64,000 nt of DNA, taken from positions 62,001-126,000 of the forward strand of contig NZ_JAAIVI010000020.1 of assembly GCF_011008905.1 (NCBI RefSeq). Reading direction: 5' to 3'. The position numbers and the translations under genes are program-made. This DNA comes from Wenzhouxiangella sp. XN201. Its GTDB lineage: Bacteria; Pseudomonadota; Gammaproteobacteria; Xanthomonadales; Wenzhouxiangellaceae. The notes beneath the pieces were generated by a model. The model had not been told where the DNA came from. It saw only the letters and a list, made by a program, of their open reading frames with translations, and did not search any database. Numbering within the stretch: position 1 is the stretch's first letter; each line of letters begins with the position of its first letter. Shown here piece after piece: positions 6,762 to 15,309 of this stretch.

Positions 6762-6955
6762 AACCGCAGATTTCGCAGATGGACGCAGATTTTTGAGAAT
6801 GGCGATTATCTGCTGGTTGAAAACCTGATCTGTGTGCAGGGCGACTGTGTGATCAGCGAACACTCGGGGTCATTTTCACGATGGTGTCTGCTTGAAGAAG
6901 ATAAACCACCTGCGTGTTGGGGTAAGTCTCATTCAATCTGCGCGAATCTGCGGTT
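6762..6955. repeat. Intergenic inverted-repeat element
   Basis: In the 244-base gap between rppH and the M28 peptidase gene, bases 6762-6780 (AACCGCAGATTTCGCAGAT) are matched in inverse by 6936-6955, with one small length difference. About 155 bases lie between the arms. The wording CGCAGAT...CGCAGAT is typical of dispersed intergenic repeats in many proteobacteria. I see no ORF worth calling inside it. It may form the 3' end of the rppH transcript. Confidence 0.55.
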
Positions 6956-6995
6956 CCCTGAAGTCCAAAGTCTATTTCCAAGGAGAAGGAGCGAA

Positions 6996-8420
6996 ATGAA
7001 TTTCACGCTTTTGCTGGCCGCCGGCCTGCTATTGGCCGGTCCGCTGGCTGCCGAAACTTTTCCCAAAGATGATCTGGTCGTCGCGCGGGAGCTGCGCGAG
7101 GCGGCACTGGCCGGTGACGGTGGCTACGAGATCGTCGCCGACCTGACCACCCGCATCGGGCCGCGTCTGGCCGGCAGCGAGGCCGACGCAAGGGCGGTGG
7201 AGTGGGCCGTAAAGATGTTCGAGGAAATGGGCTTCGACCGCGTCTGGACCGAGCCGGCGACTTTTCCGACCTGGCATCGGGGGCTGGAGCGCACCGAAAT
7301 CGTGTCGCCGGCACATCACGAACTGGTCACCCTGGCGCTCGGGTTTTCTCCGGCGACCCCCGAGGGCGGCATCGAGGCCGAAGTGGCGATGTTCGACGAC
7401 CTGGCCGCGCTCGAGGCGGCCGACGAGTCCGAGGTTGCCGACCGCATCGTGTTTATCCGCAACCGCATGGAGCGCACGCGAACGGGCGCGGGTTACGGCC
7501 GCGCGGTGGGCGCGCGCTCGGTCGGCAGCCGGGTGGCGGAAGAGAAGGGCGCCCTGGCGCTGGTCATCCGTTCGATCGGCACTTCCAACAACCGCTTCGC
7601 CCACACCGGCATGCAGCGCTTCGATTCCGACGTACGGTTGCTGCCGGCCGTGGCTATTTCCAACCCCGATGCTGACCTGCTCGAACGCCTGATGGGCGGT
7701 GACGAGCCGGTGCGCATCCAGGTGGAGGTCGATGCCGAGACGGTCGAGTCCTACACCTCGCAAAACGTCATTGCCGAGATAACCGGTGCCGAAAAGCCCG
7801 AAGAGATCGTGGCGCTGGGCGCGCACCTGGATTCCTGGGATGTTGGAACCGGTGCCATTGATGACGGCGCCGGTGTGGCCATCGTGACCGAAGCGGCGCG
7901 CTTGATCCATGAACTGGAGCAGCGTCCGGACCGCTCGATTCGCGTCATCCTGTTTGCCGCCGAGGAGATCGGCCTGTGGGGCGGTCGCGCCTGGGCCGAG
8001 GCGCGCGCCGAAGACATCGAAGACTACCAGCTCGTGGCCGAATCGGATTTCGGTGCCGGCGAGATCTACGCCATCAGCGCCCGCGTGCGCGACGAAGCCT
8101 GGCCGATGATCGAGGCGATTCAGGCCGAACTCGAACCCCTGGGAATCGAACTGGGACGGCGCCAGGCTTCCGGCGGACCGGATTTCTCGCCGGCCCGGCC
8201 GCTTGGCGTGGCCGCCGTGGATCTGCATCAGGACGGCACCGAGTATTTCGATTACCACCACACAGTCAACGACACCCTCGACAAGATCGAGCCCGAGGCG
8301 CTCAAGCAGAATGCCGCGGCCTATGCGGTGCTGGCGTGGCTGGGCGCCCAGTCGCCAGTGTCCTTTGGTTCGGGCGAGACCATTCTTGCCGAGGAAGCGG
8401 AAGCCGAGGGGGGTGACTGA
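6996..8420 (+). CDS. Secreted M28-family zinc aminopeptidase/carboxypeptidase
   Basis: A 474-residue exported peptidase. The start ATG 6996 follows AAGGAGAAGGAG and gives a clean signal peptide (MNFTLLLAAGLLLAGPLAAE). A protease-associated insert occupies roughly residues 110-230. The M28 metal ligands are visible in order: H in GAHLDSW, D in AIDDGAG, the EE pair in AAEEIGLWG, D in AESDFG, and H in DYHHTVNDTLD. The arrangement resembles carboxypeptidase Q (PGCP) enzymes that cut dipeptides in the periplasm. The C-terminal tail is acidic. It converges on the methyltransferase gene. Confidence 0.9.
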   Translation: MNFTLLLAAGLLLAGPLAAETFPKDDLVVARELREAALAGDGGYEIVADLTTRIGPRLAGSEADARAVEWAVKMFEEMGFDRVWTEPATFPTWHRGLERTEIVSPAHHELVTLALGFSPATPEGGIEAEVAMFDDLAALEAADESEVADRIVFIRNRMERTRTGAGYGRAVGARSVGSRVAEEKGALALVIRSIGTSNNRFAHTGMQRFDSDVRLLPAVAISNPDADLLERLMGGDEPVRIQVEVDAETVESYTSQNVIAEITGAEKPEEIVALGAHLDSWDVGTGAIDDGAGVAIVTEAARLIHELEQRPDRSIRVILFAAEEIGLWGGRAWAEARAEDIEDYQLVAESDFGAGEIYAISARVRDEAWPMIEAIQAELEPLGIELGRRQASGGPDFSPARPLGVAAVDLHQDGTEYFDYHHTVNDTLDKIEPEALKQNAAAYAVLAWLGAQSPVSFGSGETILAEEAEAEGGD

Positions 8421-8436
8421 GCGTTTGGCTCAGTCG
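8416..8436. terminator. Hairpin between convergent genes
   Basis: GACTGAGC (8416-8423) and GCTCAGTC (8429-8436) form an eight-base perfect stem with a five-base loop. It overlaps the stop of the M28 peptidase gene and the stop of the methyltransferase gene on the other strand. There is no T-run on either side, so it may act only as a weak bidirectional terminator or an RNA 3'-end protector. Confidence 0.45.
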
Positions 8437-9218
8437 AGCGCCTCGAGGGCAGTAATCCAGCGTTCGTCTCGCTCGGCCTCGTGTACCGGCGGGATGACCA
8501 GGGTGGTATGCGGGTGCAGTTCGGCGCTCGGCAACTCGGACAAAGCCAGGCGTTCGGCCCGAAAGTCCTCGATCGGCAGCCAGGCGGCTTCGTAGAGAAT
8601 CCCTTCCGAATCGGGCGGGTAGAAACGGCCGAGCTTGTCCACCAGAACCTGCAAACGATCGGGTCTGGCCGTGAAGCCGGTGCAGTCGAGGCTGCCGGCC
8701 AGGGCGACCTGCCACAGTAGGAGCAGCGAGCTTGGGTTGAGCGCGTACTTGAAGACCAGAAATCGCGTCGCCTCGATTGACTGCACACCGCGATGACCGG
8801 GATCCATTCCCAGGTCGGCATACAGACATGCTTCCGCCGAAATCCCTGGTTCCATGCGGGTCTCGAATCCTTCGGCCCGAGCCTGGCGCATGGCCGTGTG
8901 CGGAACCTGGGCGAACACCCCGGGATGGCCGTAGAACACGGCACATACCAGCGAGCCGGCCCTGACCTCGTCGAGCAGGGCCTGTTCCATGTCGCGGTAG
9001 CTGTCGCGCCGGTCGCGTTGATCGTCGTAGTACTCGCTCAGGTTGCGGGTGTTGGGGTTGAGTGAGTGAACCCAGTCGATGGCGAACGGATCGGCGAGCA
9101 CGAATACTACATCGGCGCGACGAATCTCGGAGATCGTTCTTTCGCCGGTATGACGTGAAGGCTGCAGGCCACAGCCGACCACGATCAACTTCCCGTGCCG
9201 GCGATCAGGACGAGGCAT
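8430..9218 (-). CDS. Borosin-type peptide backbone alpha-N-methyltransferase (tetrapyrrole-methylase fold)
   Basis: A 262-residue SAM-dependent enzyme of the tetrapyrrole methylase fold. It has the N-terminal VVGCGLQP loop, VFVLADPF, and the segment EYYDDQRDRRDSYRDME, followed by VFYGHPGVF (about residues 94-102) and MEPGISAEACLYADLG. These match the borosin methyltransferases (OphMA-like and bacterial SonM-like), not cobalamin or siroheme enzymes. Y64, R70 and Y74 line up with the active-site Tyr/Arg/Tyr set of that family. There is no fused C-terminal core peptide, so it would be a split, trans-acting enzyme. I start it at ATG 9218 (MPRPDRRHGK); this overlaps the end of the cyclase gene upstream by 14 bases and implies translational coupling. 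Its likely substrate is the peptide encoded at 11089-11301. Family assignment is strong; activity is inferred. Confidence 0.85.
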   Translation of the reverse strand: MPRPDRRHGKLIVVGCGLQPSRHTGERTISEIRRADVVFVLADPFAIDWVHSLNPNTRNLSEYYDDQRDRRDSYRDMEQALLDEVRAGSLVCAVFYGHPGVFAQVPHTAMRQARAEGFETRMEPGISAEACLYADLGMDPGHRGVQSIEATRFLVFKYALNPSSLLLLWQVALAGSLDCTGFTARPDRLQVLVDKLGRFYPPDSEGILYEAAWLPIEDFRAERLALSELPSAELHPHTTLVIPPVHEAERDERWITALEALD

Positions 9219-11067
9219 CGACGAACACGACGCGATCGCGCCCTTCCCGCTTGGCCTTATAGAGGGCTTCGTCGGCACGGCGGCGCAACTCGATCAGCGA
9301 CGCCTCATCATTGGACTGTGCCACCCCGAAGCTCATGGAGACTCTGATGCGGTCATCTTCACTCCGGCTCGATCGCAATTTTTCACGCAACTCATCCAGT
9401 GGTTCGCGAACATCCGCCAGTTCATAGCCGGGGAGCGCGATCGCGAACTCCTCGCCCCCGATACGGCCTACGATGCCCGTGTCGCCGAACACCTCCCGCA
9501 AGCGCGCTGCAACCCGGCGAAGCACCTCGTCGCCGGTCAGGTGACCGTGTTCGTCGTTGACGCGCTTGAACAGGTCGATGTCAGCGAGGATCAGCGTGAA
9601 AGGATTACCGTTCGCGCGGGCCGAAGAGAACGCCGGATCGGCGATCTCGAAAAACCGCGTGTGGTTGTTCAGACCGGTCAGGCCGTCCTGGTGGGACAGC
9701 CGGCGATAGCGGCGGCGGTCGCGCGTGGTATGGGCCAGCAGCAGTATCAGGATCAGGACCAGGAAGGCGGCGACGATATAGCCCATGTACATCAGCCGGC
9801 GTTGCTGTTTTTGAGATTCTTCCTGCAAATCGCGTACGCGCGCCTGCTCCCGCAGGAGTGCCAGTTCCTGCTCGGTAATCTGCGTTTGAAATTCGACTTC
9901 GAGGTAGGCCAGCTGTCGAGCCCGGTCCATGTCGAGAAAACGTTCACGTGCCGCCTTCTGTGACTTCAGGTGACGCAGGGCCTGCTCATGATCGCCACGC
10001 CTTTCCGCGATGGTGCCGAGTGTTTCATGGGTTTTCGCCAGATCGTCCCAACGTTCGGATTCTGTGAAATGTTCGACCAGCTCGGGCAGCATTGCCTCGG
10101 CCTGATCGAGGTCGCCTCGTTCAAGATGCAGGCGGGCGAGCACCATGCGTGTTTCCGCCACGCCCGTGGCGTAATCGTTCTTGCGGTGGCGCTCGAGCGC
10201 CGACTCCAGCAGCTCCCGCGCTTCGTCCAATCGCCCCGTCATTCTGAGCGTGTCGCCCAGGCCGAATTCGACAATCCCGATGTAGACCGGGTCACCGGCG
10301 TCTTGACAGCGTTCCATTGCCCGGCGGTACTCACGCATGGCGGACTCGAGATCGTTGTTGGCCTTGTAGGCAGCCGACAGGCGCATTCGCGCGACGCAGT
10401 CAGTTCGGACATTGCCACGTGCCGCCGCGACTTCGACCCCTTTGTTGCCGTGCTCGATGGCGGCATCGAACTTGCCGATCGAACGCAATATATCGGCTGC
10501 CAAGCTGTGGGCGTCGGCCGGCAGGTCGGGATGGTCGATTTGCGGCTCCAGCTTCAGCGTGCGATCGAGATAGTCGAAGGCTTCCTCGAAGCGGCGGAGG
10601 TTCATTGCAAGGTTGGCGCCGCGCATCAGGGCATTGAGGCGTTGGTGGTCGGGAATGTCCTGTTCGAGCAATTCTTCTGTAAGTTCGAGCGCCTTCTGGA
10701 AGTCCCCGTCCAGCGCCAGGTTACGAATCCTGAGATGCTTGTAGGTGGCGTACTGATCGGGTGTGGCGTATTCGAGCAGCGGTTCGATCTCATCGAGGAT
10801 GGCCTGGGATTCCGGCCACGGTGCCGTGACGTTGAGCCTGGCTGCCTGATCGAGCCGTTCCTGCAGGAGCCTCCGTGAGTCAGCGGGATCGAGTTGGTCC
10901 GTCACGGCGAGCCCCGGCAGCGCGGCGAGCAGCCACGCTGCCAGAAGAACTGCCGCGCGCAGACCGCGTTCTCGGCACCGTTTCGACCGGTGTGCGGAGC
11001 CGGCGGGCGAGCCGGCATCCGCTTCGAGGTTTCGTGGGCTGCCGGCAGTTTCGCGATTCGATTTCAT
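9205..11067 (-). CDS. TPR-GGDEF diguanylate cyclase, copy 1 (between precursor peptide and methyltransferase)
   Basis: A 620-residue sensor. A long basic N-terminus leads to a hydrophobic signal segment (around 38-55). Then come a tetratricopeptide-repeat region (about 60-390) likely in the periplasm, a coiled coil (EQELALLREQARVRDLQEE), one membrane helix (around 430-452) and a cytoplasmic GGDEF domain. The catalytic motif is GGEEF, so it should make cyclic-di-GMP. The RxxD inhibitory site expected just before it is absent (FGDTGIVGRI). It sits 21 bases after the precursor peptide stop and overlaps the methyltransferase start, placing it in the same operon. TPRs bind peptides in other proteins, so sensing the peptide is plausible but unproven. 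It has two paralogues next door. Confidence 0.88.
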   Translation of the reverse strand: MKSNRETAGSPRNLEADAGSPAGSAHRSKRCRERGLRAAVLLAAWLLAALPGLAVTDQLDPADSRRLLQERLDQAARLNVTAPWPESQAILDEIEPLLEYATPDQYATYKHLRIRNLALDGDFQKALELTEELLEQDIPDHQRLNALMRGANLAMNLRRFEEAFDYLDRTLKLEPQIDHPDLPADAHSLAADILRSIGKFDAAIEHGNKGVEVAAARGNVRTDCVARMRLSAAYKANNDLESAMREYRRAMERCQDAGDPVYIGIVEFGLGDTLRMTGRLDEARELLESALERHRKNDYATGVAETRMVLARLHLERGDLDQAEAMLPELVEHFTESERWDDLAKTHETLGTIAERRGDHEQALRHLKSQKAARERFLDMDRARQLAYLEVEFQTQITEQELALLREQARVRDLQEESQKQQRRLMYMGYIVAAFLVLILILLLAHTTRDRRRYRRLSHQDGLTGLNNHTRFFEIADPAFSSARANGNPFTLILADIDLFKRVNDEHGHLTGDEVLRRVAARLREVFGDTGIVGRIGGEEFAIALPGYELADVREPLDELREKLRSSRSEDDRIRVSMSFGVAQSNDEASLIELRRRADEALYKAKREGRDRVVFVDASS

Positions 11068-11088
11068 GACTGCCGGGTTTCGACGCGC

Positions 11089-11301
11089 TCAGGAATCGTA
11101 GGCGTGGACGTTGCCGTTGCTCTTGAGGTTATCCAGGCCGCTCAGTTTCTTGATCTTGTCGAGGTCCTTTTCGAGCATGGCCTGCATTTCTTCGTCAGAG
11201 AGCCCGTAGCGAGCCATGACTTCCTTCGGGTCGCTTTCGTAAGCATCCTTCAGGTCGGCGTTCTTTCCCAGGTCGATGAGCAGATCTGCAAGCTTGGACA
11301 T
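11089..11301 (-). CDS. Putative split-borosin precursor peptide
   Basis: A 70-residue protein with an excellent ribosome site (AAGGGAG, seven bases before ATG 11301). Residues 1-52 look like the small helical borosin-binding domain: SKLADLLIDLGKN, then YESDPKEVMARYGLSDEEM, then a helix rich in K and D. Residues 53-70 form a separate tail (LSG, then LDNLKSNGNVHAYDS), which would be the core to be N-methylated. The layout matches bacterial split precursors of the SonA type. Automatic pipelines may call this domain LigA-like. It is followed by the cyclase and then the methyltransferase. No dedicated protease or exporter is in the cluster. Which residues are methylated cannot be told from sequence. 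Confidence 0.8.
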   Translation of the reverse strand: MSKLADLLIDLGKNADLKDAYESDPKEVMARYGLSDEEMQAMLEKDLDKIKKLSGLDNLKSNGNVHAYDS

Positions 11302-11527: not shown

Positions 11528-13318
11528 TCATCGCCCGAAACTGTCGGCGACGACGACGGTGTCGCGCCCGCCGCGCTTGGCGCGGTAAAGGGCCGCGTCG
11601 GCGCGTTCTCGCAGTTGCTCCAGTGACTCGTGAGGAGCCAGTTGGGCGATGCCGAAACTCATGGTCAGCCGATCGGCGTCATCGCCGTACTCGATGGCGG
11701 CAAGTGCTCTCCGGAAAACTTCAAGTCCGGCCAGCACCGTGTTCAGGTCTGCGCCGGGCAGGCAAACGGCAAACTCCTCGCCACCGATGCGGCCTACCTT
11801 TCCGTCGCCGGGGAAGTGGTCGCACAGGAGTCGAGCGACTGCGCGCAACACGCGATCGCCCGCGATGTGACCGTGCCGGTCGTTAACCCGCTTGAAGTGA
11901 TCGATATCGCCCAGCACGAGCACCAGTGGTTTTCCGTTTCGATGCGAGTCATTCACCGTCGTGCGAGCGGTGTCGAAGAACCGGGTGTGGTTGCTTACCC
12001 GGGTCAATCCGTCGATTCGCGACAGGCGGCGAAAATGCCGCCGGTCGCGCAGGACGCGCCTGAGGATGACTACTAGCATCAGGACCATTCCTATCGCCAG
12101 CGCCGTGAGCAGCATTCGGAACCGGGCCTGCTGGCGGCGCGATTCTGCCTCGAGTTTGCTCACTCGCTGCTGTTCGCGCAGCAGCGCCAGCTCCTGTTCA
12201 TGGCGGTCAACGTTGAATGCAACCTCCAGCATCGCCATCCGCCGGTTGCGGTCCTTGTCGAGGAACCGACGACGTGATTCGACTTGCTTGATCCGATGGT
12301 TGTATGCGGCTTCGTACTCCCCGAGTTCCGCGTGGGCTGTTGCCGCGAGACGGTGCAGCGAAGCCTTTCGCTCCCATAATTCGCGGTCACCGACGCGGTC
12401 GATCAAACGCTCGGCCAATTCGATCGTTCGTTGGTGTTCGCCGCGGGCGGCGGCCAGGCGGGTGCGGAGCTGTTCGGCCGTCAGGATGCCGTCTGCCCAG
12501 ACTGCATCGCGCAGACGTTGCATTCCGCGGTCGATCCGGGCTTCCGCGGCTTCCAGCTCATCGTTCTCCAGGGCGAGGTAGGCCAGCTCCAGCTCCACCG
12601 TGCCCAGGTAGACCTGATCGTTGGCCTGCCTGCAATCGTCCAGCGCCCTCTTCGCGGCCTCTTCGGCGAGGTCGAACCGTTCGGCATAGCGATAGGCGAC
12701 CGAAAGCCGCTGTCCGGCCGAGCACCGCTGGGAGATGTCCCCGGAATCCACGGCGATCCGATAGGCCCGGGTTGCGTAGCGCATGGCTCTTTGATGGTCG
12801 CCGGCCAGGCTGTGCGTGAAACCGGCCAGGCTGTAGATCCGGGATGCCTCGACGGGATCGTCCGTTTGCGGAACCAGGCCGAGTGCCGCCTTGAGGTGGC
12901 CGAAGCCCGACTCATAACGCCCGATGTTGATATCGAGGTTGGCGGCCAGGCGAAGGGCGCGCAGCCTCTGGTCCTTGTCCAGCTTCGAATCAAGCAGCGC
13001 TGCAAGCCGATCGATGGCTTGGGAATAGCCGCCTCGCAGCGCCTGGTTGCGGATGTCGAGCAGGCGAATCTCGACTCGCTGGCGAGGCGTCGCCTCGTCC
13101 AGCCGTCGCATCAGCTCGTCGATCTTCGGCTGGGAGGCATTGACTGCCTCGGTGACGCTCAGCTGGCGGGCCCGCTCGATGGCCGCTTCGAGATCGTCAT
13201 CGTTGTCGGCGAAGGCCTGTGCCGTCAGGAGTCCCAGTGTCAGTGTCAGGCACGCCGGGAGCAGCCTTGGAATCGTGCACATGAGAAAGCGATTGCCGCG
13301 TGGACTCAGTCCCCGCAT
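11528..13318 (-). CDS. TPR-GGDEF diguanylate cyclase, copy 2
   Basis: A 596-residue paralogue of the neighbouring cyclases with the same order: signal peptide (MCTIPRLLPACLTLTLGLLTAQAFA if started at the inner ATG 13282), TPR region, coiled coil (EQELALLREQQRVSKLEAE), membrane helix (MLLTALAIGMVLMLVVIL) and GGDEF domain. The active motif is GGEEF (VGRIGGEEFAVCLPG); the RxxD inhibitory site is missing. ATG 13318 overlaps a 12-codon ORF that carries the only strong ribosome site here, so translation may be coupled to that leader. It lies 66 bases after the copy 3 stop, probably on the same transcript. Confidence 0.87.
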   Translation of the reverse strand: MRGLSPRGNRFLMCTIPRLLPACLTLTLGLLTAQAFADNDDDLEAAIERARQLSVTEAVNASQPKIDELMRRLDEATPRQRVEIRLLDIRNQALRGGYSQAIDRLAALLDSKLDKDQRLRALRLAANLDINIGRYESGFGHLKAALGLVPQTDDPVEASRIYSLAGFTHSLAGDHQRAMRYATRAYRIAVDSGDISQRCSAGQRLSVAYRYAERFDLAEEAAKRALDDCRQANDQVYLGTVELELAYLALENDELEAAEARIDRGMQRLRDAVWADGILTAEQLRTRLAAARGEHQRTIELAERLIDRVGDRELWERKASLHRLAATAHAELGEYEAAYNHRIKQVESRRRFLDKDRNRRMAMLEVAFNVDRHEQELALLREQQRVSKLEAESRRQQARFRMLLTALAIGMVLMLVVILRRVLRDRRHFRRLSRIDGLTRVSNHTRFFDTARTTVNDSHRNGKPLVLVLGDIDHFKRVNDRHGHIAGDRVLRAVARLLCDHFPGDGKVGRIGGEEFAVCLPGADLNTVLAGLEVFRRALAAIEYGDDADRLTMSFGIAQLAPHESLEQLRERADAALYRAKRGGRDTVVVADSFGR

Positions 13319-13384: not shown

Positions 13385-15166
13385 CTAACGTGGATCGGCG
13401 ACGACCACGACGTTGCGGCCGCCGTGCTTGGCGCGATAGAGCGCGTCGTCGGCGCGCTGGCGCAATTTTTCCAGCGGCTCGTTCGGCTGCAATTCGGCCA
13501 AGCCGAAGCTCATCGACAGCGGGCTTTGGTTTCCACCGTAGTCGATTCGCGCCAGCGCCGCACGGACTTCGTCGAGTTTAGGCATCGTCTGGCCGGCGGT
13601 CTTGCCGGGCAGGCAGATGGCGAACTCCTCGCCGCCGATTCGGCCGATGAGCCCGGGCTCCGGGAAGGCTTCCTCCAGAACGCGCGCCACTTCGATCAGT
13701 GCCCGGTCGCCGGCGATATGCCCCAACTCGTCGTTGACCCGCTTGAAGTAGTCAATGTCTCCGACGGCGAACACCATGGGACGATGATCCTGATGGGCCT
13801 TGTCGACCATCATGCGTGCCGTATCGAACAGGCGCGTGTGATTGCTCAGTCCGGTCAGGCTGTCCAGTCCGGCCAGACGCCGGAAATGCCGCCGCTCGCG
13901 CAGCACATGGGCGAGCAGCAGGGCCAGGATCAGGACCAGGAAGGCGGTGACCGCGTAAACCAGCCAGCGCAACCGGTCACGGTTGTGCCTGGACTCGTTC
14001 TCGAGTTCGTCGGCCCTGCGCTGCTCGCGCAGCAGGGCCAGTTCCTGCTCGCGCGAACTCATGTCGAAGGCGACCTGCAGGTGAGCGAGTTGGCGGGCGC
14101 GGTCGAGGTCGAGGTAGCGCTCGCGCGATTCGAGTTGTTGGCTCATGTGTTCCAGGGCCCGTTCATGATTGCCGCGAGCCATGGCGATCTCGCCCAGCAC
14201 CTGGTGCGCCTCGGCGACATAGTCCCAGGCCTGATCCTGTACCAGCGGGGGCAGCGCCTGCTCGAGCAGATTCTCGGTCATCTCTTGTTCGCCCCGCTCC
14301 CAGTGGAGCCGGGCCTTGTAGAAGCGGGCTTCGCCCAGGCCGAAGTGGTAGTCGGTTTCCTTCAGTCTGGCCAGGGCCTGACGGAACAGGTCTTCGGCCT
14401 GCTCCAACTCGCCGGTGGCGCGCAGCAGGTCGGCCAGGCCGCTCTCCACGATGCCGGTGATCAATTCGTCGTCCGATTCCCGGCAGGTCTCGACGGCTTC
14501 ACGGTAGACGGTGCGCGCCAGCTCGAACATCCGGGCCGTCTTGTAGACGAAGGCGAGACGGCCCCGGCTCACGCACAGATCGCGTGCAGTGCCGTGCTCC
14601 CTGGCGATGGCAACCGCTCGTTTGCCGTAGTCGATGGCCTGATCCGTCTCCCCGATCTTGGCGTATACGTAGGCAGCCAGGCTGAAGGGCTGATCAGAAA
14701 ACTCCGAGGGATCGAGTTCCGCACTCAGTTCAAGGGCCCGGTTCAGGTAGTCGAAGGTCTCCTCCCAGCGGCGCAGCAGCATGGCCACATTGGCCGCCAG
14801 TGAGTAGGCCCGGACCTCCTGCTTGCGCGTCATCGGCTCGTTGAACAGGGACTCGAGCGTCTCCAGGGCCGCTTCCATCCGGCCCGAAAGCGACTGGTTG
14901 CGCGCCCGGATCAGCCAGAAACGGGCGCGTTGCTCTGGTGTCGCTTCCGACAGGCGTGTCTGGATTTCTTCGAGCAGGGCTTCCGATTCGTTCCACGGGG
15001 CCGTGATGCTCAGTTCGTGAGCCCGCTCGAGTTGTCGACCGAGGGAGTCCTCGCCTGTGGCCTGGGCATTGACCAGGACGCCCAGGGCCAGTGCAATGCC
15101 CGCGAGGAATCGCCGGGCGAGGAGAGCACCCGGTCGCGAGGCTTGAAGGCGGCGGTTCAGTCGCAA
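13385..15166 (-). CDS. TPR-GGDEF diguanylate cyclase, copy 3
   Basis: About 593 residues from TTG 15166 (then RLNRRLQASRPG and a hydrophobic signal segment FLAGIALALGVLVNAQA). The frame runs open further upstream to 15304, but that part crosses a small ORF with its own ribosome site, so I reject the longer start. TPR units, the coiled coil (EQELALLREQRRADELENE), a membrane helix (LVYAVTAFLVLILALLLAHV) and a GGDEF domain with GGEEF (IGRIGGEEFAICLPG) follow. The inhibitory RxxD is absent. Residues after the signal (SITAPWNESEALLEEIQ) closely match copy 1 (NVTAPWPESQAILDEIE), showing recent tandem duplication. Confidence 0.87.
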   Translation of the reverse strand: MRLNRRLQASRPGALLARRFLAGIALALGVLVNAQATGEDSLGRQLERAHELSITAPWNESEALLEEIQTRLSEATPEQRARFWLIRARNQSLSGRMEAALETLESLFNEPMTRKQEVRAYSLAANVAMLLRRWEETFDYLNRALELSAELDPSEFSDQPFSLAAYVYAKIGETDQAIDYGKRAVAIAREHGTARDLCVSRGRLAFVYKTARMFELARTVYREAVETCRESDDELITGIVESGLADLLRATGELEQAEDLFRQALARLKETDYHFGLGEARFYKARLHWERGEQEMTENLLEQALPPLVQDQAWDYVAEAHQVLGEIAMARGNHERALEHMSQQLESRERYLDLDRARQLAHLQVAFDMSSREQELALLREQRRADELENESRHNRDRLRWLVYAVTAFLVLILALLLAHVLRERRHFRRLAGLDSLTGLSNHTRLFDTARMMVDKAHQDHRPMVFAVGDIDYFKRVNDELGHIAGDRALIEVARVLEEAFPEPGLIGRIGGEEFAICLPGKTAGQTMPKLDEVRAALARIDYGGNQSPLSMSFGLAELQPNEPLEKLRQRADDALYRAKHGGRNVVVVADPR

Positions 15167-15240
15167 ATCTTGACGCTGCCGTTGAAATTCAGCCAGTCGG
15201 GGATCCCCCACTGCTTGAGTGATTGGCCGAGTTCCGACAT
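15157..15240 (-). CDS. 27-residue small peptide upstream of and overlapping cyclase copy 3
   Basis: ATG 15240 opens a 27-codon frame with a strong ribosome site (AAGAAGGGAG, six bases before). It begins MSELGQSL and ends DWLNFNGSVKICD. The start recalls the borosin-type precursor (MSKLADLL) and the end recalls that precursor's tail (NLKSNGNVHAYDS), as though the middle helical domain had been lost. Its stop overlaps the TTG start of cyclase copy 3 by ten bases. It may be a signalling peptide, a second, leaderless core, or a translational-coupling leader. It has its own promoter-like region upstream. Confidence 0.55.
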   Translation of the reverse strand: MSELGQSLKQWGIPDWLNFNGSVKICD

Positions 15241-15261
15241 GGTAGGCTCCCTTCTTGCGGT

Positions 15262-15309
15262 GGTCGTGCGCACGACCTACAAGCCTGCGAAACGACCCGA
15301 TCAATTATA
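15262..15309 (-). promoter_or_regulatory. Promoter and palindromic site for the small peptide and cyclases 3 and 2
   Basis: On the minus strand a perfect TATAAT lies at 15304-15309, about 64 bases before the small-peptide ATG. Between them is a perfect 16-base palindrome, GGTCGTGCGCACGACC (15262-15277). This could be a repressor operator or an RNA hairpin in the 5' leader. No clear TTGACA stands 17 bases upstream of the TATAAT. Confidence 0.45.

Follow-up and report, generated by a model that had tools for sequence, protein, structure and literature searches.

A split borosin locus with a membrane TPR-GGDEF sensor in Wenzhouxiangella: a candidate peptide-signalling module

The window analysed here, a stretch of 64,000 nucleotides from Wenzhouxiangella sp. 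XN201, contains split borosin genes together with the gene for a membrane sensor cyclase. We favor, at roughly even odds (a probability of about 0.5), the reading that they form a conserved borosin-plus-sensor module, in which a split borosin is paired with a membrane sensor carrying a periplasmic TPR domain and the processed peptide serves as that sensor's ligand. Taken on its own, a functional coupling of borosin and sensor is very likely; as to mechanism, recognition of the processed peptide by the TPR domain as its ligand is the most likely, at slightly less than an even chance.

Three genes on the minus strand make up the locus: (i) a SonA-like borosin precursor peptide of 70 amino acids (11089-11301), with a helical leader resembling a borosin-binding domain and a C-terminal core; (ii) a TPR-TM-GGDEF sensor cyclase of 620 amino acids (9205-11067) and (iii) a SonM-like peptide backbone N-methyltransferase (MT) of 262 amino acids counted from its ATG (8430-9218), which overlaps the end of the cyclase gene by 14 bases. 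The preliminary description had reported these genes and the overlap, and had called the locus a split borosin of the SonA/SonM kind with active-site residues Y64, R70 and Y74; all of this was confirmed. The MT is 50% identical to SonM (7ltc_A, E=1.1e-71) and matches OphMA-type enzymes at 1e-37 and Pfam TP_methylase at 3.2e-15, whereas precorrin methyltransferases score no better than 0.03. A cobalamin or siroheme methyltransferase, the assignment against which the earlier identification had to be checked, is ruled out by this proximity to SonM and OphMA and by scores far under the NCBIfam cut-offs. Y64, R70, Y74, Y96, F102 and W169 align with SonM Y58, R67, Y71, Y93, F99 and W166, and each is conserved across 106-109 of the 109 related MTs; SonM E173 and Q178 are replaced by S176 and G181. 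Since the peptide is a SonA homologue and the MT a SonM homologue with its catalytic residues, the locus is, judged from homology, almost certainly a type IV-like split borosin. Type IV split borosins are defined by separately encoded MT and precursor (PMC8429565), which is the arrangement found here. There is a second borosin locus elsewhere in the same genome, outside the window, which the preliminary description does not list.

The precursor matches SonA (7ltc_B) with E=1e-9 over residues 1-60, which suggests a leader of the borosin-binding-domain kind, and it falls just below the cut-off for Pfam LigA (24.9 bits against 25.3). Aligned with 27 relatives of what we call group A, to which the window itself belongs, its last 12 residues (11092-11127, minus strand) are the presumed core and tail, with the boundary placed by analogy with SonA. 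Many of the related cores read roughly (T)N-x-[ST]-[IV]-x-x-[YH]-[DE]. The window core, SNGNVHAYDS, is polar, whereas the C-terminal SonA core (YLVISHGN) is hydrophobic, as are, judged by eye, many group-B and all nine group-C cores. Hydropathy revealed no hydrophobic export signal or transmembrane segment in the peptide, which counts against a periplasmic ligand.

In the sensor, Pfam detects TPR_12 (7.5e-24) and GGDEF (1.8e-37; residues 459-612, 9232-9693, minus strand). Hydropathy gives a hydrophobic N-terminal segment (residues 38-56), the TPR superhelix and a single transmembrane helix (residues 425-443, 9739-9795, minus strand) ahead of the GGDEF domain. The superhelix (residues 60-356, 10000-10890, minus strand) is predicted to be periplasmic, on the basis of the AF2 model, hydropathy and structural matches. 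The signature is an intact GGEEF, GG[DE]EF being kept in 101 of 104 TPR-linked GGDEFs, and no RxxD I-site was found on reading the window cyclase. The TPR model matches structures of Rap-pheromone and NprR with Z scores of 24-26, which we count in favor of a peptide ligand; the structural match singles out no pheromone receptor, as the TPRs of LGN and APPBP2 score alike, and this counts against it.

The association of these genes is kept far beyond the genus, a point on which the preliminary description could have failed and did not. Within 4 kb of the MT and on the same strand, a TPR sensor gene is present in 104 of 127 MT loci outside the window, across families, and in 0 of 20 control regions, although the locus counts are not independent because the loci are related and the genomes were drawn automatically. 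The first set of 111 loci comprises 77 with TPR-GGDEF, 8 with a fused gene, 4 with a TPR-histidine kinase (TPR-HK), 1 with both sensors, 9 with 7TMR-DISM-GGDEF and 12 with none; the second set of 16 comprises 8 with TPR-GGDEF, 6 with TPR-HK and 2 with none. As to sampling, L038-L063 are family-search matches from genomes other than that of the window; L084-L103 lean to close relatives because they are the top matches of the order search; L104-L143 were hand-picked from the listed order- and class-search hits to spread over genera; and L179-L198 and L279-L294 were taken from the G614 family, a phylum sample and one Shewanella genome. Both of the identical G001 contigs (L042, L043) are counted in the 111, and L005, L006 and L007 were left out as repeats of L042, L043 and L085. 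Among the 12 loci with no sensor, L009, L063 and L091 sit at the end of a contig, L127-L131 hold distant MTs (33-39% identity) and show none of the parts, the TPR-GGDEF gene of L193 is on the opposite strand, and L135, L143 and L190 match the peptide profile and have no same-strand TPR gene. We count against the favored reading both the 14 of 127 loci lacking a TPR or DISM sensor on the same strand and the nine in which the non-TPR DISM sensor takes its place.

Of the 103 peptides recognised in TPR loci, 100 lie directly 5' of a TPR gene, irrespective of the side on which the MT is found (within 900 nt in 90/93 of the first set and 10/10 of the second). As relatives of the parts stay together in so many bacteria, they are probably one signalling device. 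That three neighbours without any functional link came together by chance or by operon hitch-hiking is highly improbable. The 3.1-Mb genome encodes 49 GGDEF domains, which makes such neighbours common; full-length TPR-GGDEF relatives, however, number only three, all at the window locus, and the control regions yielded no TPR-GGDEF ORF or peptide (0/20), one GGDEF of any kind and one kinase. Those controls, the conservation across families and as fusions, and the rarity of TPR-GGDEF in the genome speak against this explanation, and we reject it. A search for recurrent neighbours (ORFs of at least 110 aa, families in at least 5 loci) recognised no exporter, which counts against a secreted ligand; besides the known parts it returned GNAT, aspartyl protease, RecQ and lipoamide-dehydrogenase-like families and three without a Pfam match, at least one of them probably a shadow frame. 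An M28 peptidase gene adjoins the window locus (6834-8420, plus strand) and formed no recurrent family in that search.

The eight fused loci encode TPR, GGDEF and MT as a single ORF (one is also recorded as Pseudoxanthomonas yeongjuensis), and they place the MT on the cytosolic side, which counts against the ligand mechanism. They would suit a coupling from inside the cell, in which the MT-peptide complex would act on the GGDEF domain, its binding or methylation state would set the cyclase or kinase, and the TPR domain would sense something else. The missing export signal is in keeping with this, as are the 14-base overlap in the window and the 3-120 nt that separate the cyclase stop from the first conserved MT residue in 20 group-A loci. 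GGDEF domains work as dimers. SonM is likewise a dimer (PMC8429565). We nevertheless regard this coupling as unlikely: in group B the MT is separate and ahead of the peptide, and kinases replace the GGDEF part in some loci while the TPR domain is retained. A TPR-HK stands in place of the cyclase in L125, L126, L191, L197, L286, L289, L290, L292, L293 and L294 and beside it in L124, making 11 such loci in all; eight have a match to the peptide profile and three (L191, L292, L293) just a small ORF at that position, and L124 and L125 retain a group-A core.

Covariation bears on the same question. Among the group-B units (n=55), divergence of the peptide tracks that of the TPR domain and hardly that of GGDEF or MT, which speaks for the ligand mechanism and against the cytosolic coupling: the peptide-TPR partial rank correlation, given MT and GGDEF, is 0.475 (0 of 500 permutations, in a test that leaves shared ancestry in), against 0.065 for GGDEF (91/500) and 0.099 for MT (60/500). 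Restricting each locus to a single unit (n=48) gives a peptide-TPR value of 0.436. In the window's own group A (n=24), the peptide covaries about equally with TPR (0.195), GGDEF (0.214) and MT (0.242), which counts against the ligand mechanism and agrees with the cytosolic coupling. A swap test within six duplicated group-B loci failed to separate cognate pairs from non-cognate ones, which also counts against the ligand mechanism. Left out of these comparisons were the kinase units without GGDEF (L124, L125, L126, L197), L104, L043, L052 (gene order of group B, peptide of group A), one split hit of L136 and, in L123, the unit lying upstream.

A further possibility reverses the direction of control: the TPR domain would sense an outside cue and govern methylation or use of the borosin, an ordinary secreted product, with the cyclase as a co-expressed regulator. 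Three kinds of sensor (TPR-GGDEF, TPR-HK and DISM-GGDEF) adjoin borosin genes, and TPR-GGDEFs occur alone too; both count in its favor. We consider it improbable, somewhat more so than the cytosolic coupling, since it leaves unexplained the group-B covariation, the placement of the peptide beside the TPR gene and the multiplication of the two together; L101, L110, L113, L114, L123, L132 and L136 carry two or three [peptide + TPR-GGDEF] units per one MT.

TPR-GGDEFs away from known MTs were also surveyed. None of 20 such loci (14 from 12 genomes lacking any MT hit, the other 6 from 6 genomes whose MT hit lies elsewhere, in G024 just a fragment) had an MT or, by profile or by eye, an adjacent peptide, several of these stretches being short or ending at contig ends (L261 spans 4.4 kb); in L263 the peptide profile gives a single weak hit 4.6 kb off. 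An exclusive dedication of TPR-GGDEF to borosins is thereby ruled out. Such orphans are common, one (L260) even being a tandem resembling the window, and the window cyclase between peptide and MT is closest to orphan TPR-GGDEFs; both count against the favored reading. Two paralogues, absent from the preliminary description, lie upstream of the peptide on the same minus strand (11528-13318 and 13385-15304; Pfam, TPR tree). In the TPR tree the first is nearest to cyclases that are linked to a peptide in sister genomes (L038, L039), and the second to the upstream cyclase of L038, which is not peptide-linked, with the peptide-linked L049 next.

The proposal that the peptide belongs to a signalling circuit, made in the preliminary description, stands in part. 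Circumstantial evidence speaks for it (exchange of output domains, co-duplication, fusion and group-B covariation); TPR-specific covariation in group A and an export signal are lacking, and there are TPR-GGDEFs without a peptide. In the favored mechanism, the MT would methylate the peptide backbone near the C-terminus; a protease, none being identified in the operon, would free the mature core, which would reach the periplasm and bind in the groove formed by the TPR superhelix. This might then be relayed through the lone TM helix, altering the cyclase dimer and with it c-di-GMP output, and the module would provide a peptide signal for autocrine or neighbour sensing. More broadly, and more tentatively still, the split borosins of gammaproteobacteria, SonA/SonM included, may be peptide signals with dedicated receptors and not mainly antibiotic-like: a ribosomal peptide, N-methylated on its backbone, would be sensed by a periplasmic TPR domain encoded directly downstream and read out as c-di-GMP or a phosphorelay, with outputs exchanged and pairs duplicated as units in evolution. 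If the ligand mechanism holds, the signal would be a ribosomal peptide with backbone N-methylation and its receptor a membrane cyclase or kinase, and the receptor domain could be used for peptide-controlled c-di-GMP switches.

There is some resemblance to known peptide sensing. RRNPP receptors such as Rap and NprR share the TPR superhelix fold, which is common to other TPR proteins, and in both systems a sensor is accompanied by a small peptide gene. RRNPP receptors are cytosolic, have other outputs and take up a secreted peptide whose propeptide carries an export signal. By hydropathy, the window sensor instead has an N-terminal hydrophobic segment and a TM between TPR and GGDEF; its TPR domain, predicted to be periplasmic, is joined to GGDEF (a kinase in relatives), and its peptide comes with a leader of the folded type and with a methyltransferase. 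The GGDEF part is 28-36% identical (Foldseek) to those of DgcB and SiaD, cyclases with a stalk, from which the window differs in its sensor domain and borosin partner.

The typed borosin architectures probably stem from Imani 2022 (ACS Chem Biol). Our open-access literature search found no description of such a borosin signalling circuit. The earlier statement that none of this kind was known needs qualifying: a legend published in 2024 for a figure of borosin architectures (PMC11395268, Figure 1), from the sole paper found with both borosin and GGDEF, already names a 'GGDEF-sequence-containing domain'. That legend shares GGDEF with the window and gives neither borosin type nor placement; GGDEF occurs in the legend only (2 hits), and the introduction and discussion assign it no role. 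Passages of PMC8429565 and PMC11285071, and the introduction, discussion and legends of PMC11395268, offer no biological role for split borosins, and the main text of PMC8429565 has no hits for GGDEF or diguanylate. Among the closest known systems is SonA/SonM of Shewanella oneidensis (PDB 7LTC; PMC8429565), which like the window has a separate MT, a SonA-type precursor and the same catalytic residues; the window differs in that the cyclase sits between peptide and MT. In a Shewanella fodinae genome (L198), a SonA-like peptide with a similar core region is directly followed by a TPR-GGDEF gene, and this conserved sensor partner, found also beside a SonA-like gene, makes the role of split borosins directly testable.

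In the reading that we prefer, the SonA-like precursor peptide of the window would be a ligand, the TPR domain of a membrane sensor its receptor, and c-di-GMP or a phosphorelay the output. The genes lie on the minus strand in the order TPR-GGDEF paralogue (13385-15304), second TPR-GGDEF paralogue (11528-13318), peptide (11089-11301), TPR-GGDEF cyclase (9205-11067) and borosin-type methyltransferase (8430-9218). The methyltransferase ATG falls within the 3' end of the cyclase ORF, the two genes sharing 14 bases, and AAGGGAG precedes the ATG of the peptide; rechecked on this strand, the positions and residue numbers that the preliminary description had assigned to peptide, cyclase and methyltransferase proved correct. 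The genome encodes 49 GGDEF domains but only three full-length TPR-GGDEF relatives, which are all in this tandem. An M28-family peptidase gene (6834-8420, plus strand) is convergent with the methyltransferase gene, their ends about 10 bases apart; it was not a recurrent neighbour in our survey of families around methyltransferase loci.

The methyltransferase matches SonM, the enzyme of the Shewanella oneidensis type IV split borosin, with E=1.1e-71 (122 of 242 aligned residues identical) and fungal OphMA-type enzymes at E ~1e-37. A cobalamin methyltransferase identity was rejected, such enzymes matching only at E 0.03 and above. Ten SonM positions were compared, taken with their roles from PMC8429565; eight are identical in the window enzyme (Y58, R67, Y71, Y93, F99, E146, W166 and Q167), with 106 to 109 of the 109 related methyltransferases keeping each of them, and E173 and Q178 differ. 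The peptide (70 residues) matches SonA over residues 1-60 (E=1e-9). From its N terminus the cyclase comprises a hydrophobic stretch, a TPR superhelix, one transmembrane helix and a GGDEF domain bearing GGEEF, a layout that should place the TPR portion in the periplasm and the GGDEF portion in the cytosol. In a set of 104 related ORFs, judged by hydropathy only, a transmembrane segment is predicted between TPR and GGDEF in 103, and a hydrophobic segment stands ahead of the TPR in 99.

The association of borosin genes with such sensors is widespread. Domains (methyltransferase, peptide, TPR, GGDEF, kinase and DISM) were mapped around methyltransferase genes, and in a first set of 111 loci outside the window we found 77 with a same-strand TPR-GGDEF within 4 kb, 8 TPR-GGDEF-methyltransferase fusions, 4 with a TPR-histidine kinase, 1 with both, 9 with a 7TMR-DISM-GGDEF and 12 with none of these sensors. 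A second set of 16 gave 8 TPR-GGDEF, 6 TPR-kinase and 2 with none, so that over both sets a TPR sensor was present at 104/127 loci and a membrane sensor of these kinds at 113/127. Among 20 control regions from the same genomes there was no TPR-GGDEF ORF and no peptide; GGDEF occurred in one and a kinase in one.

Gene order points to the pairing of peptide and TPR gene as the constant element. The window belongs to group A (peptide, TPR-GGDEF, methyltransferase), in the fused form of which the peptide is followed by a single TPR-GGDEF-methyltransferase ORF; Pfam confirmed GGDEF and TP_methylase in the 849-residue Pseudoxanthomonas yeongjuensis fusion. Group B (methyltransferase, peptide, TPR-GGDEF) is found in Shewanella, in the family of G614 (a genome whose family was also sampled) and across many genomes of the order to which the window belongs. 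While the methyltransferase position varies between these groups, a recognised peptide lies directly 5' of the TPR gene in 90/93 and 10/10 cases in the two sets; the three exceptions (L106, L113, L136) exceed the distance limits, yet the TPR gene is still 3' of the peptide, and in L106 a second peptide gene intervenes. Twelve loci without a profile-detected peptide each have, by eye, a small ORF of similar plan immediately ahead of the TPR gene. At L100, L105, L106, L113, L123 and L181 a single TPR-GGDEF is preceded by a row of two or three different peptide genes, possibly indicating multi-ligand receptors. A GNAT acetyltransferase recurs beside group-B methyltransferases, upstream or between methyltransferase and TPR gene (15 loci by phmmer, for example L193:5989-6549, L115, L180 and L184); it may serve in an additional modification step or as an immunity enzyme. 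Group C (nine loci) has the order DISM-GGDEF, flavin amine oxidase, peptide, methyltransferase; the second split borosin locus of the window's genome (G000:C19, L003:6863-11379) is of this kind, with a 7TMR-DISM-GGDEF and hydrophobic residues at the C-terminal end of its peptide. At L279:4343-7873, from another class of the window's phylum, a 1177-residue open frame carries a borosin-like methyltransferase as its N-terminal portion and also contains repeat-like stretches and, late in the frame, a hydrophobic segment.

The output domain can be exchanged. L124 and L125 have the order peptide, TPR-TM-HisKA-HATPase-receiver, methyltransferase and keep the group-A core (SNTTVSSYD, SNTTFKSYD), with an additional TPR-GGDEF behind the methyltransferase in L124, and L126 has methyltransferase, peptide and a TPR-kinase with two receivers. 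One-ORF TPR-kinases were also found at L191, L197, L286, L289, L290, L292, L293 and L294; the peptide profile matches 8 of the 11 TPR-kinase loci, L191, L292 and L293 having just a small ORF in its place. At loci where kinase and cyclase take each other's place, the TPR domain is therefore the sensor part that stays with the peptide.

Covariation was measured over 55 group-B units, for which distance matrices were compared by rank correlation, partials and 500 permutations. Peptide and TPR gave a rank correlation of 0.675 and a partial of 0.475 given methyltransferase and GGDEF, with 0/500 permutations as high, in a permutation test that leaves shared ancestry in place. Partials were 0.065 for GGDEF, encoded by the same gene as the TPR (91/500 as high), and 0.099 for the methyltransferase (60/500). 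One unit per locus (n=48) gave 0.436, 0.035 and 0.089 for TPR, GGDEF and methyltransferase, and ten random 80-column TPR subsets a mean of 0.380 (lowest 0.237). By peptide part, correlation with the TPR was 0.416 for the leader, 0.267 for the core and 0.268 for the tail; the leader also correlates with the methyltransferase (0.273). Evolution is probably faster in TPR than in GGDEF domains, so part of the peptide-TPR signal may reflect a better clock. No partner stood out in group A (n=24; TPR 0.195, GGDEF 0.214, methyltransferase 0.242), and a swap test inside six duplicated group-B loci did not tell cognate from non-cognate pairs.

Counting against a dedicated receptor, TPR-GGDEFs that lack a neighbouring methyltransferase are common in the window's family, and 20 TPR-GGDEF loci away from methyltransferases had neither a methyltransferase (0/20) nor an adjacent peptide (0/20). 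Among 43 genomes of this family, a TPR match (E of 1e-15 or lower) occurs in 30 and a methyltransferase in 20. In a FastTree TPR tree of 136 rows, group-A cyclases intermingle with such orphans: the cyclase at 9205-11067 has its nearest neighbours among orphans in four sister genomes, and the one at 11528-13318 is nearest to the peptide-linked cyclases of L038 and L039. For 13385-15304 the nearest is the L038 upstream cyclase, where no peptide was recognised immediately 5' of the gene, followed by the peptide-linked L049. It seems that the sensor family is older and that the borosin pair joined it or was lost from it. Four sister-genome loci (L259, L260, L261 and L262, from G031, G026, G027 and G024) carry window-related TPR-GGDEFs, tandem in three of the four, with neither peptide nor methyltransferase within the stretches examined, as if the two had been lost or gained together.

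With regard to mechanism, structural matches of the TPR superhelix, from a cyclase model with mean pLDDT 86 and pTM 0.58 (8 sequences), include APPBP2 with degron, the pheromone receptors Rap (with pheromones) and NprR, and LGN with peptides; for this model they fit peptide binding but are generic for such folds. Transport is a gap in the ligand reading, since hydropathy revealed no export signal on the peptide and no recurrent exporter was recognised among neighbour families of methyltransferase loci. A pepsin-like aspartyl protease gene lies on the same strand, ~0.5-4 kb upstream of the methyltransferase, in 10 group-B loci (L011, L096, L097, L105, L115, L180, L183, L185, L188 and L192) plus L283. 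Shewasin D, a bacterial pepsin of Shewanella denitrificans, is described as mainly cytosolic (PMC4814920). Bacterial pepsins of this kind may be borosin maturation proteases. As guesses, the hydrophobic core could be cut loose by an enzyme of this type, and N-methylation might then aid its passage across the membrane.

A figure legend on borosin architectures names a GGDEF domain (PMC11395268), so the borosin-GGDEF association has probably been partly recorded already. No signalling role for it was found in the open-access literature searched, and GGDEF and diguanylate are absent from the Nat Commun text on SonM and SonA (PMC8429565). Over the first 60 positions, the L282 peptide shares 38 residues with SonA (the window peptide 23) and is followed by a TPR-GGDEF, and Shewanella fodinae (L198) has a methyltransferase, a SonA-like peptide and a TPR-GGDEF, the core region FLIVNHGN of its peptide aligning with YLVISHGN of SonA.
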